Assembly (NCBI GenBank): GCA_037721215.1
Contig: JBBJNV010000013.1
Location: 1-64,000, forward strand
Origin: Gemmatimonadaceae bacterium
Lineage (GTDB): Bacteria > Gemmatimonadota > Gemmatimonadetes > Gemmatimonadales > Gemmatimonadaceae
Reading direction: 5' to 3'
DNA: 64,000 nt
The notes beneath the pieces are model-generated. The model saw only the letters and a list, made by a program, of their open reading frames with translations. It was not told the DNA's origin and searched no databases. The position numbers and the translations under genes were made by a program. Positions 53,238 to 62,784 of this stretch are shown here, piece after piece (position 1 is the stretch's first letter; every line of letters begins with the position of its first letter).

Positions 53238-53238
<1 letters not shown>
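52000..53238 (-). CDS. MacB-like ABC transporter permease, A-type (copy 1)
   Basis: A 412-residue permease, first gene after the ATPase. It begins with VPFIDAVRLALAQL at a GTG that overlaps the ATPase stop (TAGTG) and has the first helix KSFFTLLGVTIGVMFLIAVV. Periplasmic region: PRILISDVEPVISALP, EMNVASGRLLSVQEM. C-terminal helices include REIGIRKALGARRRDIMSQF and end GIYPASRASKLDPILALRSD. An in-frame ATG at 53259 would add seven residues; the GTG is preferred because it gives the same N-terminal length as the A-type copy at 50666. Confidence 0.9.
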
Positions 53239-54055
<817 letters not shown>

Positions 54056-54056
<1 letters not shown>

Positions 54057-55348
54057 CAGGATTTTGCAGCCGGTACTTTCTTTCCATCATCCGGCTTGCT
54101 CTCTTTGACCCGGTTGCCATCCTTGAGATCGCGGATGGCCTGGTACGTTCCGCCGACGATGCGATCACCGCTCTTCAGACCGCTGATCACTTCGAAGAAC
54201 TTCTCGCCGGCAATACCCACCTTTACGGGGCGGAACGTCACTTTGTTGTCGGCAGCAACAACAAAAACGCCCTCGATGTCGCGTTTGCCGACCTGTTTCG
54301 TCGGTGCCGCCTTCGCCAGCGTTATGCCCGCCGTGTCGGCCTTCGCGGTGGAGTCCTCGCGGACGGTGAGCGCGATGATCGGTATCGACAACACGCTGTT
54401 GCGGGTGTCGGTGATGATTTTGGCCGTCGCCGAAAAGTCAGGCCTTGTCGCCGGCGGCGTATTGATGAGTTGAATGGTGACCTCATAATCGATCGCCTGA
54501 TCAGCCGGGCTGCCGCCGCCGCCCAGACCCGCCTTGATAGAGCTGTTCGAAATCTCCGATACGCGGCCGACGAATGTAGTGTCAGGGAACGCATCGATCT
54601 GAATTACGGTCGAGTCGCCGATCTGGATACGCGAAACATCGGTCTCGTCGACCTTGACCTTGGTCTCGAGGAGGCTCATGTCGCTGATTGTGAGCAGTGT
54701 TGCCGCATCCTTGTTGAGCGTGCCCATGATTGCGGTCTCGCCTTCGCGCACATTCAGGCGCGTCACCTTGCCGCTCATTGGAGCGACGATTGTCGTCTTG
54801 CCAAGGAGACTTTGTGCATCGCGGAACGATGCCTGGGCCTGTGCGATCCCGTTGTTCGCCGACTCGAGCTGGGCCTGCGACACTTCGACCTGGGTTTTCA
54901 GCTGCTCCACCTGTTCATCCGATACGAGGGTGGGGTTTGCCTTCTTGAGCTCAAGCATCCGATTGTAGTTACGGCGCGCCTGAACAAGTCCAGGGCTGGC
55001 AGTAGCGGCCTGCGACCGGCTGGAGGCAACCGCGGCTGCGGCGCGCTCTGCCGCCGCACGATACTGAGATGGGTCGATTTCAAGAAGGAACTGGCCTTTC
55101 GTGACCACATCTCCCTCTCTCACCGCCAGACGTACCACGCGGCCAGTAATGTCGGCGCTCAGGTCCACCTTGTTGTGCGGCTGCACCTGTCCGCTCGCAG
55201 TGACCGATGCCACGAGGTCGCGCTTTTCCACCGCCTCGATTCTCACTTCAGTCGCCTTGTTACGGCCTTTTGCCGCAGTTGTGGCACCAATGACCGAGAC
55301 AATCAGCACTACGACGCCAATGACTCCCCACTTTTTACGCTTTGACAT
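54056..55348 (-). CDS. Periplasmic adaptor (MacA/HlyD family)
   Basis: A 430-residue membrane-fusion protein with an N-terminal anchor ([17 protein letters not shown]). A lipoyl-type half-motif ([34 protein letters not shown]), an alpha-helical hairpin with a long coiled-coil (residues about 90-190, [20 protein letters not shown]), and a second lipoyl half ([16 protein letters not shown]) lead to beta-barrel domains. It links the ABC inner-membrane proteins to the TolC-type pore encoded next. The ATPase gene start overlaps its stop. Confidence 0.92.
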
Positions 55349-55357
55349 TGTCTTCCT

Positions 55358-56842
55358 TTATCTGAGTGGACGGCCGACGGCGCTCTCGAGCGCTGCGTAC
55401 GCCTTGTGGTAGTCGAAGATCGCATTGATTCGGTCGCTTTCCGCGCGTTCGTACGCTGCACGGGAGTCAGTGACGTCGACGAAGTTCACTGCGCCGCTGC
55501 GATAACGGTCCTGCGTGAACTTGAGCTCAAGTCTCGCCTTTGCCGAGTTCTGCGCCTGAAGGGCAGCAGTTTTTGCGGCGGTGGTGAGCGTCAGGTACGC
55601 AGCGGTGACATCGGCGGTAATTGCCAGCTCGCGAGCTCTCACTCCGTAGCGGGCGTCAAAACTCGCGGCCTGCGCTTCCTGCACCCGCTGCTCACGTGCA
55701 AAACCGTCGAACAACGGGAGTGAGACACTTGCGGAAAGTGACTTTGGCGAAGGCTGAAAACGGAATGGAAACTGGCTGTTCTCGCGACGCATCGCGCTTG
55801 CCTGGGCATCCGAGAAATCGATGGCGCCACACATCGCGAGATTGTTTGGAAGGTTCAACGCCGCCCTGACTTCCTCGGCGCGAATACACGATGCGCGTTG
55901 TTCGGCCGCTCCGCCCCGCGCCTGGTTGATGAGAAAGTTCGGATTGGCGTAGGAGTAGGTGTAGCCCGAGATACCGGTGTTGATGAACAGCGTCGGCGAG
56001 TACTCGCCCCGGGCCCGCTTGACGTTGAGTTCGGCGACCCTCTCGCGAGAGCGCAATGCGAGCACAACCGGATTGGCCTCGCGCGCGGACGCGAGAAGCT
56101 CAGCGAGCGGCGGGGGATCCATGGTTACCGTAAACTCGCTGGTAAGAACAACGTCCGACGGTTGTTCCACTCCCAGCAGCTGAAACAGTCTCAGCTTCTC
56201 GATCTCGATCTGATTCCGTGTCTGAAGCACCTGCACCTGCTGCTGACCCAGTGAGATCTCGGCCCGTTGTACGTCGAGGGCCGTGCCCGAACCAACGAGC
56301 GCTCGCGCCTGCGCCAGTACCACCTGGTTGCGCGTGGAGATCAGGAGCGTGTCCTGCAGATCAGCGCGGTCCTGCGCCTGCAGCACAGAGAGGTACTGCT
56401 GAGTTACCTGGCCTCGCAGCACTTCCTGGCTGCCGGTGATGTCGGCCTCTACTGCGTCGCGATTTGCCCGCTGAAGCTTCGGGGTTATCAGCGAGGCGCG
56501 GTTTAGTCGATAGCCAACGCCGATCTGATACGATGATTGATTCACGTCCGAGCTGGCACCGAAACTGCCGCCGTTGAATATCTGGCGGCCGCCTTGTTGT
56601 CGCTGTGCGTTCAGGCTCGCGTCCGCGCTCGGGAGCAACTGTCCGAACGCGCTTCGAACGGCCGCATCCGCACCGCGGCGATTGTTCATGGTCGACAGAT
56701 GTGCAGGGTTATTCCGCCGCGCCAGAGTGACTGCTTCCGCCAGCGTGAGTGTCGCACGGGTGGCTGGCGGCGCAGCAGGTGTCTGTGCGCCGGCCAGTGC
56801 CGGTCCGATGAATGCCAGCAGGAAGTACAAGCGTTTTTGCAT
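55358..56842 (-). CDS. TolC-family outer-membrane efflux protein
   Basis: A 494-residue outer-membrane factor with a signal peptide ending ALAGAQ. Two repeats of the TolC helical pattern are visible: TLAEAVTLARRNNPAHLSTM near the N-terminus and REANPVVLALRSRERVAEL in the middle, plus LKFTQDRYRSGAVNFVDVTD and the final IFDYHKAYAALESAVGR. A short insertion containing CIRAEEVR lies in the middle. The start of the adaptor gene lies nine bases downstream of its stop, and together with the ATPase and permeases it forms a tripartite exporter. Confidence 0.93.
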   Translation of the reverse strand: MQKRLYFLLAFIGPALAGAQTPAAPPATRATLTLAEAVTLARRNNPAHLSTMNNRRGADAAVRSAFGQLLPSADASLNAQRQQGGRQIFNGGSFGASSDVNQSSYQIGVGYRLNRASLITPKLQRANRDAVEADITGSQEVLRGQVTQQYLSVLQAQDRADLQDTLLISTRNQVVLAQARALVGSGTALDVQRAEISLGQQQVQVLQTRNQIEIEKLRLFQLLGVEQPSDVVLTSEFTVTMDPPPLAELLASAREANPVVLALRSRERVAELNVKRARGEYSPTLFINTGISGYTYSYANPNFLINQARGGAAEQRASCIRAEEVRAALNLPNNLAMCGAIDFSDAQASAMRRENSQFPFRFQPSPKSLSASVSLPLFDGFAREQRVQEAQAASFDARYGVRARELAITADVTAAYLTLTTAAKTAALQAQNSAKARLELKFTQDRYRSGAVNFVDVTDSRAAYERAESDRINAIFDYHKAYAALESAVGRPLR

Positions 56843-56907
56843 GGTATTTGTGTGGTTGAGTCAAGGGGCCATACGAATGCGGGTGAATCGCGGTTTCAGT
56901 ACAATCA

Positions 56908-57717
56908 TCACTCTGCCAGCGCCGGTGCGAGGAAGATGCGGTCGCTGATTCTGGAGCGGATGCGCTCGTATAGCACACGTCCTTTTTCTGCCGACGCCAG
57001 GGACGGGCGGCCGATCGAGCCCGCGCTGGCTCCGGGCACCTTAAGTGTCCCCCGACGGTATCGCCGCAGCTCCTCCCGCGACATCATGTAGTCCCTGGCG
57101 AGCTCATGGTGTACCATGTGAGGCGCCAGGTACATCATGATCGACGTATCCACTTCGTCGCCATGCATGGCTTCAATTTGTCCTTCCAGCAATTCCGAAA
57201 GATTGACAGCAAAGATATCCACTACGCGCACGCGGGCCCCCGCAGTGATGACGGTTGCCAAAGCTTCCTGATGTGGATCATGTCCGTGCGCCGTTAGCAG
57301 GATGAACTCCCTGAAACCCGTCGCTTCCCATGAATCGAGCAAATCGTTCAGGGATCGATGCAGAGTCTTCTTGCGCACGGACGCATTTCCGATGAACCCT
57401 CTTTCAGTGTCAACGTTGACACCGTATTCGATGGTAGGAGCGCGCAACACACCATATTCGGCCGAAAGGTCGTCGGCGAGGTGCTCGACAATTATCGTGG
57501 CGACTCCGAGCGGAAGGTGCGGCCCGTGCTGCTCGCACGTGCCCACTGGAATGATCAGCCGAGGATCTTCCGCGATGACGGCCTCGATCTGCATCGGAAT
57601 CAGCTCCTTGATACGGAGCGGAGCCTTTTGCGGAAGGGGCACTAGCGGAGCGTGCGGGGCGGTCGGAGTATGCAGATTGTCAGATCCGCGGGATGGAAGT
57701 GGTGATATTGGCTTCAT
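56908..57717 (-). CDS. Creatininase-family amidohydrolase
   Basis: A 269-residue protein of the creatininase/MftE fold. Metal-binding motifs include IIPVGTCEQHGPHLPLG (Glu and His), LLTAHGHDPH, and MHGDEVDTSIMMYLAPHMV (His, Asp, Glu). The usual aspartate after HLPLG is absent (VATI follows), so metal coordination may differ from creatininase. A Pro-rich 40-residue N-terminal stretch precedes the domain. Substrates in this family include creatinine, formamides and riboflavin-pathway amides, so none can be assigned. Divergent from the large sensor kinase with 19 bases between starts. Confidence 0.82.
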   Translation of the reverse strand: MKPISPLPSRGSDNLHTPTAPHAPLVPLPQKAPLRIKELIPMQIEAVIAEDPRLIIPVGTCEQHGPHLPLGVATIIVEHLADDLSAEYGVLRAPTIEYGVNVDTERGFIGNASVRKKTLHRSLNDLLDSWEATGFREFILLTAHGHDPHQEALATVITAGARVRVVDIFAVNLSELLEGQIEAMHGDEVDTSIMMYLAPHMVHHELARDYMMSREELRRYRRGTLKVPGASAGSIGRPSLASAEKGRVLYERIRSRISDRIFLAPALAE

Positions 57718-57736: not shown

Positions 57737-60700
57737 GTGGTGACGGACAGTCCGAGGGGGCGGGTTTTCATCATTGCGGTCGGAATCGCAATCCTGCTGC
57801 TGGCGTTCTGGCTGCGTGACCCTTCCATACCTTATGCCAGTGAATGGAGCCGCGCCAGCAGTTCTTCGGCGACGCAGGATTTCCAGGGCGTCGATGCGCG
57901 CCGGCGTGCCATGGCGATCGAGCAGCTGCGTACAGGCATTGCGCGCGCAGAGCGAGACATTCGCCAGGTGGCGCTGAGGGCCCTCCGCGCCCCGGCATCC
58001 CCCGACGCGGCGTTTGATTTTCTGGCATCGGGGCCGGCTGATTCTGAAAGGGGAATCGTCATCATCGACAACGGCGTCCCCATCGCATGGTCGGGAAAGT
58101 TTCGTACCGATCCAAGGATAGCGAGCCACGGCGCCAGCGTTACCTCGACTGCGTTTTATACCGCTCTCAATTTTTCTGTAACCAGAGGGCGCCGGCGTGT
58201 TGTGGCCACTGCTCTCTTGCATGCCGAGCCGCCTGCGAACGTTCTGAGCCGGCCTCTGGACGCGTCCATCGACGGTCGCGACCAGGTCGAGTCGTTTTCC
58301 CTCGGCAGAGCGTCGGACGTGGCGGCCGGTGAAGTTGTCCGGGACGGCCGGGGATCTCCGCTCCTCAGGGTTGACGCGACGCCCTTACCCCCGGAAGTGC
58401 TGCAATTCGACCGCAGGGCGAAGCTACAGGCACGCGGGTCCCTTTTTCTCGGACTGGCGTTCGCGGTGTTTCTCGCGATGTGCTGGACAGACCGAAGGCA
58501 TCTCGGGACGAGAATCTTTGCGCTTTCGGTGGCGGCAGTGATGATCGCCGTGGTGCCCTGGAACAACTTTTCCAACGTCAGTCGCGCATTCGATCCCGCG
58601 TATTACTTCCTGCGCAACGGTGGCCCGTTTACGGCCAGTGCGGGTGCGGTCCTGATGTCGAGCATCATCGCCGCGTTGACGACGTTCGCGCTGATACGCT
58701 CCCGGCGCATCCGGCTGCCGCGGGGCCTCGCGGCAGTGACGGCGGTTGCACTCGCTGCTATCGGAATTCTGGCGGGCGTCAGCGCATCATCGGGTGTCGC
58801 TCTTACTCCCACCGGTACGACCCCGTTTCTGTGGCTCATCTGGGAGATTCCGGTTTTCCTCCTGCTTTTTTCGTTCTGGCTTGCGGCGTGGTGGCTGGGT
58901 CGGCTCGCGCGCGGGCAGGCGCCGACGGTGCACCTTGGCGTTGCATCGGTTGTGGCACTGATTGCCGGCACAGTCGCAGTCCTCATTGTCTGGCAGACCA
59001 CCACCCGACAGCGACTGACGCTCGCGACGCGCGATATCGCGGGGTTACAGCAGGCGGATGGAGAAGCCGCGAATCTCCTGCGCCGGTTCGGCGACGAACT
59101 CTCTGGTTTTGACTCGCCCGGCACTCGAGCCGACCTGCTCAAACGTTATGCCGATTCCGATCTCGCACCGGCCGCACTCCAGGTGTCGCTTGCCGCCTGG
59201 AGCTCGTCTGCGGTTCAGACGGCACAACTCGACATTGCGCCTTTGCTGTACAACCAAACCACTGTTGTTGCGGCCGTGGGACAGGCGATGCTTACAAAGG
59301 TGTCTGTGATCGCCCAATCGCTCGGCCCTACAGGTCGTCAGGTGATTCTTGCTGCGCCGCATTCACTGGGGGGTGTGACCACGGCGGTCGTGTCGCCAAA
59401 AACCCGTCTGGTTGCGAGCGACCCGTTTGCAGCGTTACTCGGCCTCGCGCATAGCGGCCAGAATGATGCGCCGTATACGCTGACAATCGATCCGGTTCCC
59501 ATGCAGATGGCAGATCAGGAAGATGTCGTCAGGTGGAGGAGGATCGGCGACGAGTGGCAGGGGGATCAGCTTATCAAAACCTCCCGTGGTCCCCTCCGTG
59601 CGCGAGCGGAGGTCGACCTGCGATCAGTTCCCGCGAGGTTCGTGCGTGCGTGTCTGACGGTGATACTGAATATTGCGGTCGCCGGCTTGCTGTGGGCGCT
59701 GGGAGCGATGGCGGAGGGCGGGTTCATCCGATGGGTCCGCGGACGGGCGTGGAAGTGGATTTACAGTTACCGTGGCCGGTTGACGCTGGCGCTATTCATG
59801 TTCTTTGTCGTTCCTGCAATCGCGTTTGGTGCATGGTCGTATCGGCGGCTTCGAACCGATGACCGTGAGGTGCGGGAGCTGCTCGTTCGAGAAACGCTGA
59901 GCGCTGCGTCTGCTCGTTATCAGGTCAGCTCCCCGTCAGAGCGGGTAGGCGGCACGCCTTTGTTTGCATACGCGGGCGGATTGTTGCAGAGCAGCAGCGA
60001 CCCATTATACGAGCAGATTGCTCCTGTTGGTCTCACGCTTCCCGGGCCGGTGCATCGGAGTATCGCGAGGGGCGGTGAGCTCGATGCTTCGTGGCAGCAG
60101 TCAATCGGCAGTGAAAAATCGTTGTGGGGATATCGTGCTGTCGCGGGGGGGTTGAACCAGCTATACGTTATCGCCGCTCCGGCGCGCGGTGACGAGCTGG
60201 TACTGGATCGACGGCGGGGTGACCTCACGATGCTGGTCCTGTTCGCCACCGCCGCCGGCGGGCTTGCGGCGCTCTGGCTCAGTGGCATCGCTGCCAAAAG
60301 ACTTGCGCGCGACCTTGAGTTGAGCCGAATCGAAGTCGCACGCGCGGAGCGAGTTCTGGCTTGGGGCGAAATGGCACGCCAGGTCGCGCATGAAATCAAG
60401 AATCCTCTCACCCCGATCCGGCTTGGTGTGCAGCATCTCCGACGCGCGCGGCTTGATAACCGAGTCGATTTTGACCGGGTGCTGGACGAGAACGTGACAC
60501 GCATACTGTCGGAGATAGACCGTCTTGACGAGATCGCCCGGGCTTTCAGCCGGTACGGAAGTGCTCCCGCAGATCTGCCGGCCGCTGAGTGCGTCGATGT
60601 CGCGGCGATTCTTCGCAGCGCCGTTGGGCTCGAAAAAATCGGCATTGGAGATGTATCGTGGACGCTGCAAGGTGCGGAGGGAGCAGTGTTTGGCGAGGCA

Positions 60701-61018
60701 AGGACCGATGAGCTACGCGAAGTTCTGCTGAACGTTTTCGAGAACGCCCGGCTGGCGCGGGCGCGCAACGTTACCGTTGTTCTCACAGAGCGCACGCGCA
60801 CGCTCTGCATTGAAGTTTCCGATGACGGCTCGGGAATTTCGCTGGCCTCTCTCCCTCGCGTATTTGAGCCTCATTTTTCCACGCGCACGGCGGGCAGCGG
60901 GCTGGGTCTTGCAATCAGCCGACGACTGCTCGAGTCATGGGGGGCAACTATCGATATTGCGAGCGAAGTGAACAGCGGCACACGCGTAACTATCACGCTA
61001 CAAAAGGCCGCGCTGTGA
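57737..61018 (+). CDS. Large multi-TM NtrY-like sensor histidine kinase
   Basis: A 1093-residue membrane sensor kinase. Helix 1 is near residues 10-25, a first periplasmic domain follows (to about 230), then about six helices (GSLFLGLAFAVFLAMCW to VVALIAGTVAVLIVW), a second periplasmic domain (about 425-640), two helices (VILNIAVAGLLWALG, LALFMFFVVPAIAFGAW), a short domain, and a last helix (LTMLVLFATAAGGLAALWL). Then comes the H box QVAHEIKNPLTPIRLGVQHL (His 885), N box LLNVFENARLAR, DDGSGIS, and GSGLGLAISRRLLE. No receiver or HAMP is obvious. The GTG start is divergent from the creatininase gene; the stop overlaps the Ser/Thr kinase start (GTGA). Confidence 0.92.
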   Translation: MVTDSPRGRVFIIAVGIAILLLAFWLRDPSIPYASEWSRASSSSATQDFQGVDARRRAMAIEQLRTGIARAERDIRQVALRALRAPASPDAAFDFLASGPADSERGIVIIDNGVPIAWSGKFRTDPRIASHGASVTSTAFYTALNFSVTRGRRRVVATALLHAEPPANVLSRPLDASIDGRDQVESFSLGRASDVAAGEVVRDGRGSPLLRVDATPLPPEVLQFDRRAKLQARGSLFLGLAFAVFLAMCWTDRRHLGTRIFALSVAAVMIAVVPWNNFSNVSRAFDPAYYFLRNGGPFTASAGAVLMSSIIAALTTFALIRSRRIRLPRGLAAVTAVALAAIGILAGVSASSGVALTPTGTTPFLWLIWEIPVFLLLFSFWLAAWWLGRLARGQAPTVHLGVASVVALIAGTVAVLIVWQTTTRQRLTLATRDIAGLQQADGEAANLLRRFGDELSGFDSPGTRADLLKRYADSDLAPAALQVSLAAWSSSAVQTAQLDIAPLLYNQTTVVAAVGQAMLTKVSVIAQSLGPTGRQVILAAPHSLGGVTTAVVSPKTRLVASDPFAALLGLAHSGQNDAPYTLTIDPVPMQMADQEDVVRWRRIGDEWQGDQLIKTSRGPLRARAEVDLRSVPARFVRACLTVILNIAVAGLLWALGAMAEGGFIRWVRGRAWKWIYSYRGRLTLALFMFFVVPAIAFGAWSYRRLRTDDREVRELLVRETLSAASARYQVSSPSERVGGTPLFAYAGGLLQSSSDPLYEQIAPVGLTLPGPVHRSIARGGELDASWQQSIGSEKSLWGYRAVAGGLNQLYVIAAPARGDELVLDRRRGDLTMLVLFATAAGGLAALWLSGIAAKRLARDLELSRIEVARAERVLAWGEMARQVAHEIKNPLTPIRLGVQHLRRARLDNRVDFDRVLDENVTRILSEIDRLDEIARAFSRYGSAPADLPAAECVDVAAILRSAVGLEKIGIGDVSWTLQGAEGAVFGEARTDELREVLLNVFENARLARARNVTVVLTERTRTLCIEVSDDGSGISLASLPRVFEPHFSTRTAGSGLGLAISRRLLESWGATIDIASEVNSGTRVTITLQKAAL

Positions 61019-62784
61019 GCAGTCCGCGACGCACGCCGCCCGCGGGGCGTCAGCCTTCGGCGTTGCCGAATCATATTGCCGGTTGGCAACTGCCTGCTGG
61101 ATGGCAGTGGGGAGCCCGGGGGTTGAGTGGCGACCGGCGGCACTACCAGCAGGTAATCGACGGATTTGGTCGATCCCTTTCTCTCGTGACTGTACCAGAC
61201 CGCGGGCACGAGGACTGGCTCATGTCGGAAGCGCGGCATCTCGCCCACCGCAATCATCCGGCGATTCCCACCACGTATCACTACTGGGCGGGGGAACGGG
61301 ATGCCAGGCGTGGACCGGCCTACCTGCGACGATGGGTGACGGGTGAATCCGCACGAGCGCATCTTGCGCGGCTTCATGCAGCCGAGATCCCGTACGTGTT
61401 GCAGATCCTGCGCGGCGCCGGTTCGACGTTGTCATATCTGCATGACAGCGGAACGTCACACGGTGCACTTACTCCCGACACGATCTGGGTTTCGCCAACT
61501 GGACGGCTCTGGTTGCTGGAATGGCAATGGGCAATCCCCCGCGGTGATTTGCCCGCGGGAATTTCGCCGACGCTTCACGACGTGGGTGGCGGGGTGGACA
61601 GCGTGCAGAGGTCAGTCCCTCCTGAGTGGGTAGGTGCAACATGGACACCCACGCCCGCGACCGACCAGTGGCAGCTTGCTGCGACCTGTTTTGCTGCGCT
61701 CACCGGGGAGCAGCCACCTTCGGCGGATATTCCCCCCGTCAGCTGGCTTCGGCCGGAATGTCCGGCCAGTGTGGCAACGGCGCTGGACCGGGCCCTGTTG
61801 CCCGATCCGGAAGAGCGATTTCCTTCCATCGCTGCCTTCCTGCGAGTCGCTGACCGTGGATACGCCAGCCGCGGAAGCATCGTCGTGCCCGTACCCGACC
61901 CCGATTTTGATTCCGGCCGCGCGCATACGTCGGAGGAAGCGAGAGTCCGGTGGGCGCTGGGAGATGATTACGAAGTGCTTTCATCACTTGGTTCGGGGAG
62001 CTTCGGACACGTGTGGCGCGCGCGCGATCTTTCGCTCGAACGTGAAGTCGCATTGAAAGTTCTGCATCCGCGCGTTGCAACCGATGCGCGTGCTGTCGCC
62101 GCGTTCTGGCGCGAAGCAAAACTTGCGGCGCAGCTGGCCCATCCCGCTATCGTCCCGATCTATGACTGGGACGGTCGCGGAGACCTTTCGTGGTACACGA
62201 TGGAACTTGCTGAAGAAGGCTCTGTCGCGAATCTGGTCGCCCGCAATGGTGCTCAGGCGATCGAGGAAATTGCCCCGCATGTGGAGTTGGTGCTCGATGG
62301 ACTCGGCGCTGCGCACTCTATCGGGATCATCCATCGTGATCTGAAACCCGAGAACATTCTCATCGATCGGTACCGCAGGTGGCGAATCACGGATTTTGGA
62401 ATAGCAAACATCACCGGCGAAGATGTAGCGGGTAACACGGGCACACCGGCGTTTGCCGCACCCGAGCAGCTTCTCGGGGAACCACAGAGCGCGAGCGTCG
62501 ATCTGTTCGCGCTCGCGGGCATTGTGGTGTTCGCAGTTTCGGGTCACACTCCGTTCGGGGATGGCGAGCCGAACATGATCGCCGCGCGCCAGTTAGCGGG
62601 CCGGATAGACCTTTCGGAGGTTCCTCCGATATTGTCAGGCTGGGTGAACCGTGCGCTTGCGCCGACTGCAGACGCCAGATTCACCGATGCGGCGGAGATG
62701 AAACAAGCATTGCGCGAGGCGCTGGTCGAGCCTCGCTGGCGGCACCGCGCGGGGTGGTGGCGCCGGCTGCCTCGGGAAGACTGA
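61015..62784 (+). CDS. Tandem pseudokinase-kinase Ser/Thr protein kinase
   Basis: A 589-residue soluble protein with two kinase-like domains. The C-terminal domain (from about residue 316) is complete: LGSGSFGHVW loop, Lys 348 in VALKVLHP, HRDLKPENILI (Asp 442), DFGIAN (Asp 460), APEQLLG. The N-terminal 300 residues look like a second kinase C-lobe and part of an N-lobe (AGSTLSYLHDSGTSHGALTP, residues 148-151 SHGA replacing HRD; LEW at 168-170 replacing DFG; ATDQWQLAATCFAALTGEQPP like the F helix), so it is predicted to be catalytically dead. No transmembrane segment. The GTG start overlaps the histidine kinase stop. Confidence 0.9.
   Translation: MSSPRRTPPAGRQPSALPNHIAGWQLPAGWQWGARGLSGDRRHYQQVIDGFGRSLSLVTVPDRGHEDWLMSEARHLAHRNHPAIPTTYHYWAGERDARRGPAYLRRWVTGESARAHLARLHAAEIPYVLQILRGAGSTLSYLHDSGTSHGALTPDTIWVSPTGRLWLLEWQWAIPRGDLPAGISPTLHDVGGGVDSVQRSVPPEWVGATWTPTPATDQWQLAATCFAALTGEQPPSADIPPVSWLRPECPASVATALDRALLPDPEERFPSIAAFLRVADRGYASRGSIVVPVPDPDFDSGRAHTSEEARVRWALGDDYEVLSSLGSGSFGHVWRARDLSLEREVALKVLHPRVATDARAVAAFWREAKLAAQLAHPAIVPIYDWDGRGDLSWYTMELAEEGSVANLVARNGAQAIEEIAPHVELVLDGLGAAHSIGIIHRDLKPENILIDRYRRWRITDFGIANITGEDVAGNTGTPAFAAPEQLLGEPQSASVDLFALAGIVVFAVSGHTPFGDGEPNMIAARQLAGRIDLSEVPPILSGWVNRALAPTADARFTDAAEMKQALREALVEPRWRHRAGWWRRLPRED

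Follow-up and report, generated by a model that had tools for sequence, protein, structure and literature searches.

Hanks-type Ser/Thr kinases can feed into two-component systems by phosphorylating the response regulator or the histidine kinase. In Bacillus subtilis, Thr101 of WalR is a phosphorylation site of PrkC (PMC4478028) and Ser76 of DegS is a target of Hanks kinases (PMC3033389), and HstK-type cyanobacterial proteins are described as single polypeptides that carry both a Ser/Thr kinase and a histidine kinase domain (Phalip et al. 2001, cited in PMC2176072 and PMC1262709). Until now, such cross-talk has usually been found target by target. Bacterial pseudokinases are experimentally largely unexplored; MviN of Mycobacterium tuberculosis (ActPs3 family) has its three catalytic motifs degraded and bulky aromatic residues by a filled pocket (PMC12599244). 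Here we describe a locus in a 64,000-nucleotide stretch of DNA from a Gemmatimonadaceae bacterium (assembly GCA_037721215.1, contig JBBJNV010000013.1, positions 1 to 64,000; hereafter the window), in which the gene of a sensor histidine kinase overlaps with the gene of a tandem protein made of a pseudokinase domain and an active-type Hanks kinase domain. Because the two kinases are genetically coupled in Gemmatimonadaceae, such cross-talk can be examined there on a natural example whose partner is already predicted; the locus also adds a conserved bacterial pseudokinase.

No stop/start-overlapping operon with the histidine kinase is described for PrkC/WalRK or DegS, where the likeness to our locus would lie in Ser/Thr phosphorylation of a two-component protein; moreover, PrkC is a membrane PASTA kinase with no described pseudokinase domain. 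In HstK the Ser/Thr and histidine kinases are likewise physically joined, but within one polypeptide rather than through two overlapping genes, and no pseudokinase tandem is reported for it in the passages cited. At the locus studied here, both genes lie on the + strand and start with GTG: the histidine kinase gene at 57737-61018 (1093 aa) and the tandem kinase gene at 61015-62784 (589 aa). As claimed in the earlier note, the stop codon of the former is shared with the start codon of the latter in a GTGA at 61015-61018 (+ strand). At all 17 readable junctions of the same genus, the kinase frame opens at an ATGA, GTGA or TTGA, so the overlap is no chance feature of one assembly. At L053 (G192), the frames of both genes are broken at the junction and the kinase match begins at residue 60, due to either an assembly error or a real deletion.

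The pair was followed in a scan of named genomes, which gave 80 loci. Almost all of these are labelled Gemmatimonadaceae or Gemmatimonadetes, thus the family handled here as f1 is Gemmatimonadaceae; f2 and f3 are sister families, and f4 and f5 are families outside the order. The histidine kinase gene lies directly upstream of the kinase gene and co-directional with it at 57 of the 80 loci, 20 of them overlapping and most of the remainder separated by a few to 84 bases. The two genes are convergent at 11 loci and in another order at one, and no histidine kinase stands in the sequence retrieved for the other 11, of which three include little upstream DNA. On the kinase tree, the clade of the window comprises 17 rows, 15 with the overlap and two without the histidine kinase, and the convergent state is limited to one part of the tree, where two changes are needed. 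The genome carries about 34 kinase matches and about 25 histidine kinase candidates in 3.5 Mb, and the estimated chance of one co-directional adjacency per genome is of the order of 0.1 (34 x 25 / 3200 genes / 2). A single such pair would be unremarkable, and the weight lies in its retention at 57 of the 80 loci. One kinase from a contig labelled Candidatus Kuenenia stuttgartiensis (L200, CALQGY020000036.1) is nested inside Gemmatimonadaceae in the tree, and this contig is probably mis-binned or mislabelled.

The tandem kinase consists of an N-terminal domain (aa 20-283, 61072-61863, + strand) and a C-terminal kinase domain (aa 318-575, 61966-62739, + strand). Single-sequence Pfam matches to the N-terminal domain are weak (E 0.019), with 0.01 reached by just five of 22 orthologues. 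The profile search of residues 1-300 against kinases, which the earlier note had proposed, returned a kinase fold: over most of the domain, the alignment profile matches PDB entries of PknA and PknB at values between 5e-18 (PknA) and 2e-14, and the N-terminal domains of the sister families, alignable with those of Gemmatimonadaceae, match kinases at 2e-27. By HHalign, the N-terminal domain aligned with its own C-terminal domain over 219 columns at a probability of 99.9% (E 3e-31), whereas the control against the histidine kinase profile gave 0.1%. The structure model of the tandem (mean predicted local distance difference test score, pLDDT, 82) arranges its strands and helices in the same order in each half, while structural searches with the whole tandem matched essentially the C-terminal domain only. 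Judged by profiles and secondary-structure order, the ~280 N-terminal residues are a true kinase fold.

The catalytic motifs of this fold are degraded. A degenerate catalytic loop, HGALTPDT (61459-61482, + strand), stands in place of the HRDLKPEN of active kinases, with H149-G150-A151 at the HRD position; E169-W170-Q171 (61519-61527, + strand) occupies the DFG position, and the VAIK lysine is absent. Among orthologues, the beta3 lysine is replaced by Leu, Val or Thr in this alignment register and by Arg in f2/f3, the HRD position is HG(A/G/S) in nearly all Gemmatimonadaceae and HGD in two, and the DFG position is most often GWQ in the family, with (V/L/I)RR and DLR in f2/f3. With the VAIK Lys, the HRD Asp and the DFG Asp all lost, the domain is by its sequence motifs a pseudokinase. 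This agrees with the earlier note as to HRD and DFG, except that the DFG equivalent had been placed one residue off (LEW instead of EWQ) and that the VAIK Lys is gone as well. The mean within-family identity of the N-terminal domain is 59%, compared with 65% for the C-terminal domain, which argues that the pseudokinase is maintained. The alphaC Glu72 is invariant, Trp170 and Trp172 are invariant in 22 aligned family N-terminal domains, and three tryptophans in all (W166, W170, W172) surround the DFG position. MviN resembles the domain in having all three motifs degraded and aromatics near the pocket, and by analogy the pocket here may be filled by aromatics; MviN, however, belongs to an actinobacterial family and has no fusion to an active kinase. 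The HG(A/G) loop also differs from the GLW pseudokinase motif (PMC12599244). In genus g39, the pseudokinase domain has a second paralogue, diverged to 41% identity and encoded in an open reading frame of about 700 aa (G121:C9:260306-261136 and G080:C77:20169-20999).

The C-terminal domain is a complete Hanks-type Ser/Thr kinase domain, as had been read earlier from the letters. It matches Pfam Pkinase over the gathering score (2.3e-44), and its HRD (62332-62340), DFG (62392-62400) and Lys348 are invariant except in one damaged sequence. VIA-align of the model to PknB (5u94) gave Z 32.7 and a root-mean-square deviation of 1.6 with 254 aligned. The protein has no transmembrane segment outside the kinase core, and it ends in a basic-aromatic tail, R..WWRR (62740-62781, + strand), that recurs across the family. 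The order of a pseudokinase followed by an active kinase in one chain is that of JH2-JH1 in JAK/TYK2, although homology is proposed for the kinase fold only: the tandem here is bacterial and of the Hanks Ser/Thr type, and the relative pose of its domains is left open by the model (predicted template modelling score, pTM, 0.53). Known kinase types were considered and set aside. A PASTA kinase (PknB/Stk1) was rejected because NF033483 scored 196 of 450 bits with the kinase domain alone matched, and there are neither PASTA domains nor transmembrane segments outside the kinase core. The anti-phage kinase MADS6 / PD-T4-6 was rejected because NF047741 scored 158 of 460 bits and the best PADLOC models span the kinase domain alone, and the PglW defence match is below cut-off or generic to the kinase domain; the neighbours are non-defence genes. 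Searches of the open literature gave no relevant hit, either for kinase operons of Gemmatimonas or for tandem pseudokinase-kinases of bacteria.

The upstream gene encodes a HisKA-type sensor histidine kinase, with HisKA (60362-60538, + strand; PF00512, 2.6e-07) and HATPase_c (60707-61006, + strand; PF02518, 3.1e-21) both over the gathering score. Its H-box HEIKNPLTPI with the phospho-acceptor H885, its N-box and its G-boxes are invariant among 27 orthologues. Hydropathy gives ten transmembrane segments, in keeping with the multi-transmembrane histidine kinase claimed before, and with this number the N-terminus faces the cytoplasm together with HisKA, a self-consistent topology. The AlphaFold2 model (mean pLDDT 79, pTM 0.66) has three alpha/beta domains in predicted periplasmic stretches, which secondary structure and hydropathy assign to aa 27-231 (57815-58429), aa 419-637 behind a six-transmembrane bundle (58991-59647) and aa 701-829 (59837-60223), all on the + strand. 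In relatives from other genera, HAMP and PAS domains separate HisKA from the last transmembrane segment; in the window's genus, in g6 and in some others this segment of ~130 residues is missing (here at aa 861-866, about 60317-60334), and it was apparently lost more than once. Among the NCBIfam families listed (25 of 76), the best match is AtoS, at 130 of 646 bits, and none is an NtrY model.

A candidate response regulator lies past the end of the window, ~15 kb downstream of the histidine kinase (G000:C13:77679-78998). It has a REC and a sigma-54 domain, and its best family is NtrX (NF051870), at 456.8 bits and thus under the 600-bit cut-off. The two genes keep their order and a common strand across f1-f5, with the regulator downstream and mostly 7-56 kb away. 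The spacing is about 14 kb in G157, 8 in G049, 12 in G046, 10 in G039 and G058, 24 in G037 and G057, and 43-56 in G047, G059 and G043; nine order-level genomes span 8-56 kb. In eight f4/f5 genomes (G069, G092, G101, G102, G184, G175, G212, G065) it is 7-20 kb, on the same strand. The distance rises to about 70 kb in G026 and G030, the genes are unlinked in G107 and G221, and in four f7/f9 genomes checked neither a close histidine kinase match nor a close regulator match was found. For a 4 Mb genome, the chance that a given gene falls on the same strand and no more than 20 kb downstream is estimated at about 0.25%. This old gene order suggests that the NtrX-like protein is likely the cognate regulator. 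Compared with NtrYX/PlrSR, the regulator is nearest NtrX (457 bits) and the relatives of the histidine kinase share a TM-HAMP-PAS-HisKA-HATPase arrangement, but both proteins score under curated cut-offs, the histidine kinase here has ten transmembrane segments and three predicted periplasmic domains, and the regulator gene is linked but not adjacent, where direct adjacency of ntrX would be expected of the NtrYX family.

The gene directly before the regulator gene (L088:17012-17680; G000:C13 about 77.0-77.7 kb) encodes a protein of ~223 aa that begins with a hydrophobic segment and matches no Pfam family. It stays with the regulator in several Gemmatimonadaceae and could be a two-component accessory, possibly a parallel to PlrP, which accompanies some NtrYX systems as a third, periplasmic component (PMC13001219). 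In one f2 genome (G057, L124:8424-13607), the tandem kinase stands beside a different histidine kinase-regulator pair, convergent with it, whose regulator is 41% identical to the NtrX-like one.

The reading we favour, held tentatively as a good possibility, is that the histidine kinase and the NtrX-like regulator form a His-Asp pathway tuned by a co-made, pseudokinase-regulated Ser/Thr kinase. It is supported by the overlap at every readable junction of the genus, the co-directional abutting at most loci, the maintained pseudokinase, the invariant catalytic residues of the histidine kinase, the PknB-like fold and the order of histidine kinase and regulator. The histidine kinase would sense the envelope through its three predicted periplasmic domains and signal to the regulator, and gene coupling would have both kinases made in a fixed ratio. 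The soluble Hanks kinase may meet the histidine kinase at the membrane, with peripheral contact through the R..WWRR tail, and the pseudokinase may be a docking or allosteric module that binds the histidine kinase or the regulator, or restrains the C-terminal domain in a JAK-like way. The Ser/Thr kinase would then phosphorylate the histidine kinase or the regulator, as in PrkC-WalR and Hanks kinases-DegS. We think it unlikely that the JAK-like protein is a dedicated third kinase of the two-component system, co-translated with the histidine kinase and docked by its pseudokinase domain in one His-Asp and Ser/Thr complex throughout Gemmatimonadaceae.

Several observations weigh against the tuned pathway and would be expected if the two were merely co-transcribed neighbours with no direct link, the kinase having landed behind the histidine kinase in the family ancestor, been held there by expression context and slow rearrangement, and acting on other substrates. 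Each gene occurs alone in some genera: in g36 (L136) the histidine kinase is gone and the kinase is retained between creatininase and ComM, in g6 (L085) the histidine kinase is followed by an OmpA-family gene with no kinase orthologue, and G084 retains the histidine kinase without the kinase. These losses look real and, with the strand flips, make ready-made comparisons. In most of the 11 convergent loci, the two genes are separated by 1.5-2 kb, and where inspected this interval holds an aldehyde dehydrogenase gene. In f2/f3, the tandem kinase is a reciprocal best full-length match but is unlinked to the histidine kinase orthologue, which stays beside creatininase-TolC-MacA. Other, non-signalling neighbours are equally stable: creatininase, TolC, MacA and ComM also persist, and because the whole neighbourhood rearranges slowly, linkage by itself says little about a shared function, a synteny that also weakens the pairing with the regulator. 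Nor is retention a proof, since creatininase-histidine kinase and the efflux genes are kept even longer. On the other side, no gene intervenes at the 57 abutting loci, whereas downstream of the kinase the neighbour varies (OmpA, aldehyde dehydrogenase, others), and the overlap recurs at every readable genus-level junction; the mere-neighbours account is thus a serious but doubtful one.

The same distribution qualifies the reading in the earlier note. The genes are neighbours in most of Gemmatimonadaceae but not across Gemmatimonadota, a phylum-wide pair being ruled out by the unlinked orthologues in f2/f3, and one signalling unit is plausible but not obligatory. The pair is a Gemmatimonadaceae-level arrangement that joins two older modules and is kept in most of the family, not universally. 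Most simply, the tandem kinase and the histidine kinase both existed before, and the former came to lie behind the latter in the family ancestor. The f2/f3 kinase neighbourhoods give no consistent clue to function, with QueC/QueE-like genes in three and others elsewhere.

The direction of signalling could also be the reverse, with the histidine kinase as a receptor read by the pseudokinase, a periplasmic signal turning the Ser/Thr kinase on in a JAK-like manner and the His-Asp branch secondary. The kinase is soluble and has neither a sensor nor a transmembrane segment of its own, unlike PknB-type kinases, the histidine kinase brings three predicted sensor domains, and the pseudokinase is conserved; but the strong conservation of the histidine kinase catalytic residues and of the regulator linkage indicates that the His-Asp branch is not vestigial, and g36 retains the kinase without the histidine kinase, so we consider this direction rather improbable. 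That the N-terminal domain is an atypical enzyme or nucleotide binder with SelO- or SidJ-like chemistry is very improbable, for although other activities exist among some kinase-like proteins with missing motifs and Glu72 is invariant, nearly all orthologues in the family have lost the Lys and both Asp positions, and the three tryptophans suggest a filled pocket, as in MviN.

Upstream of the pair, the creatininase, TolC, MacA and MacB-like genes lie at 53238-57717 of the window on the - strand, divergent from the histidine kinase gene, and this arrangement is retained in the sister families. The start codons of the creatininase and histidine kinase genes are about 20 bases apart.

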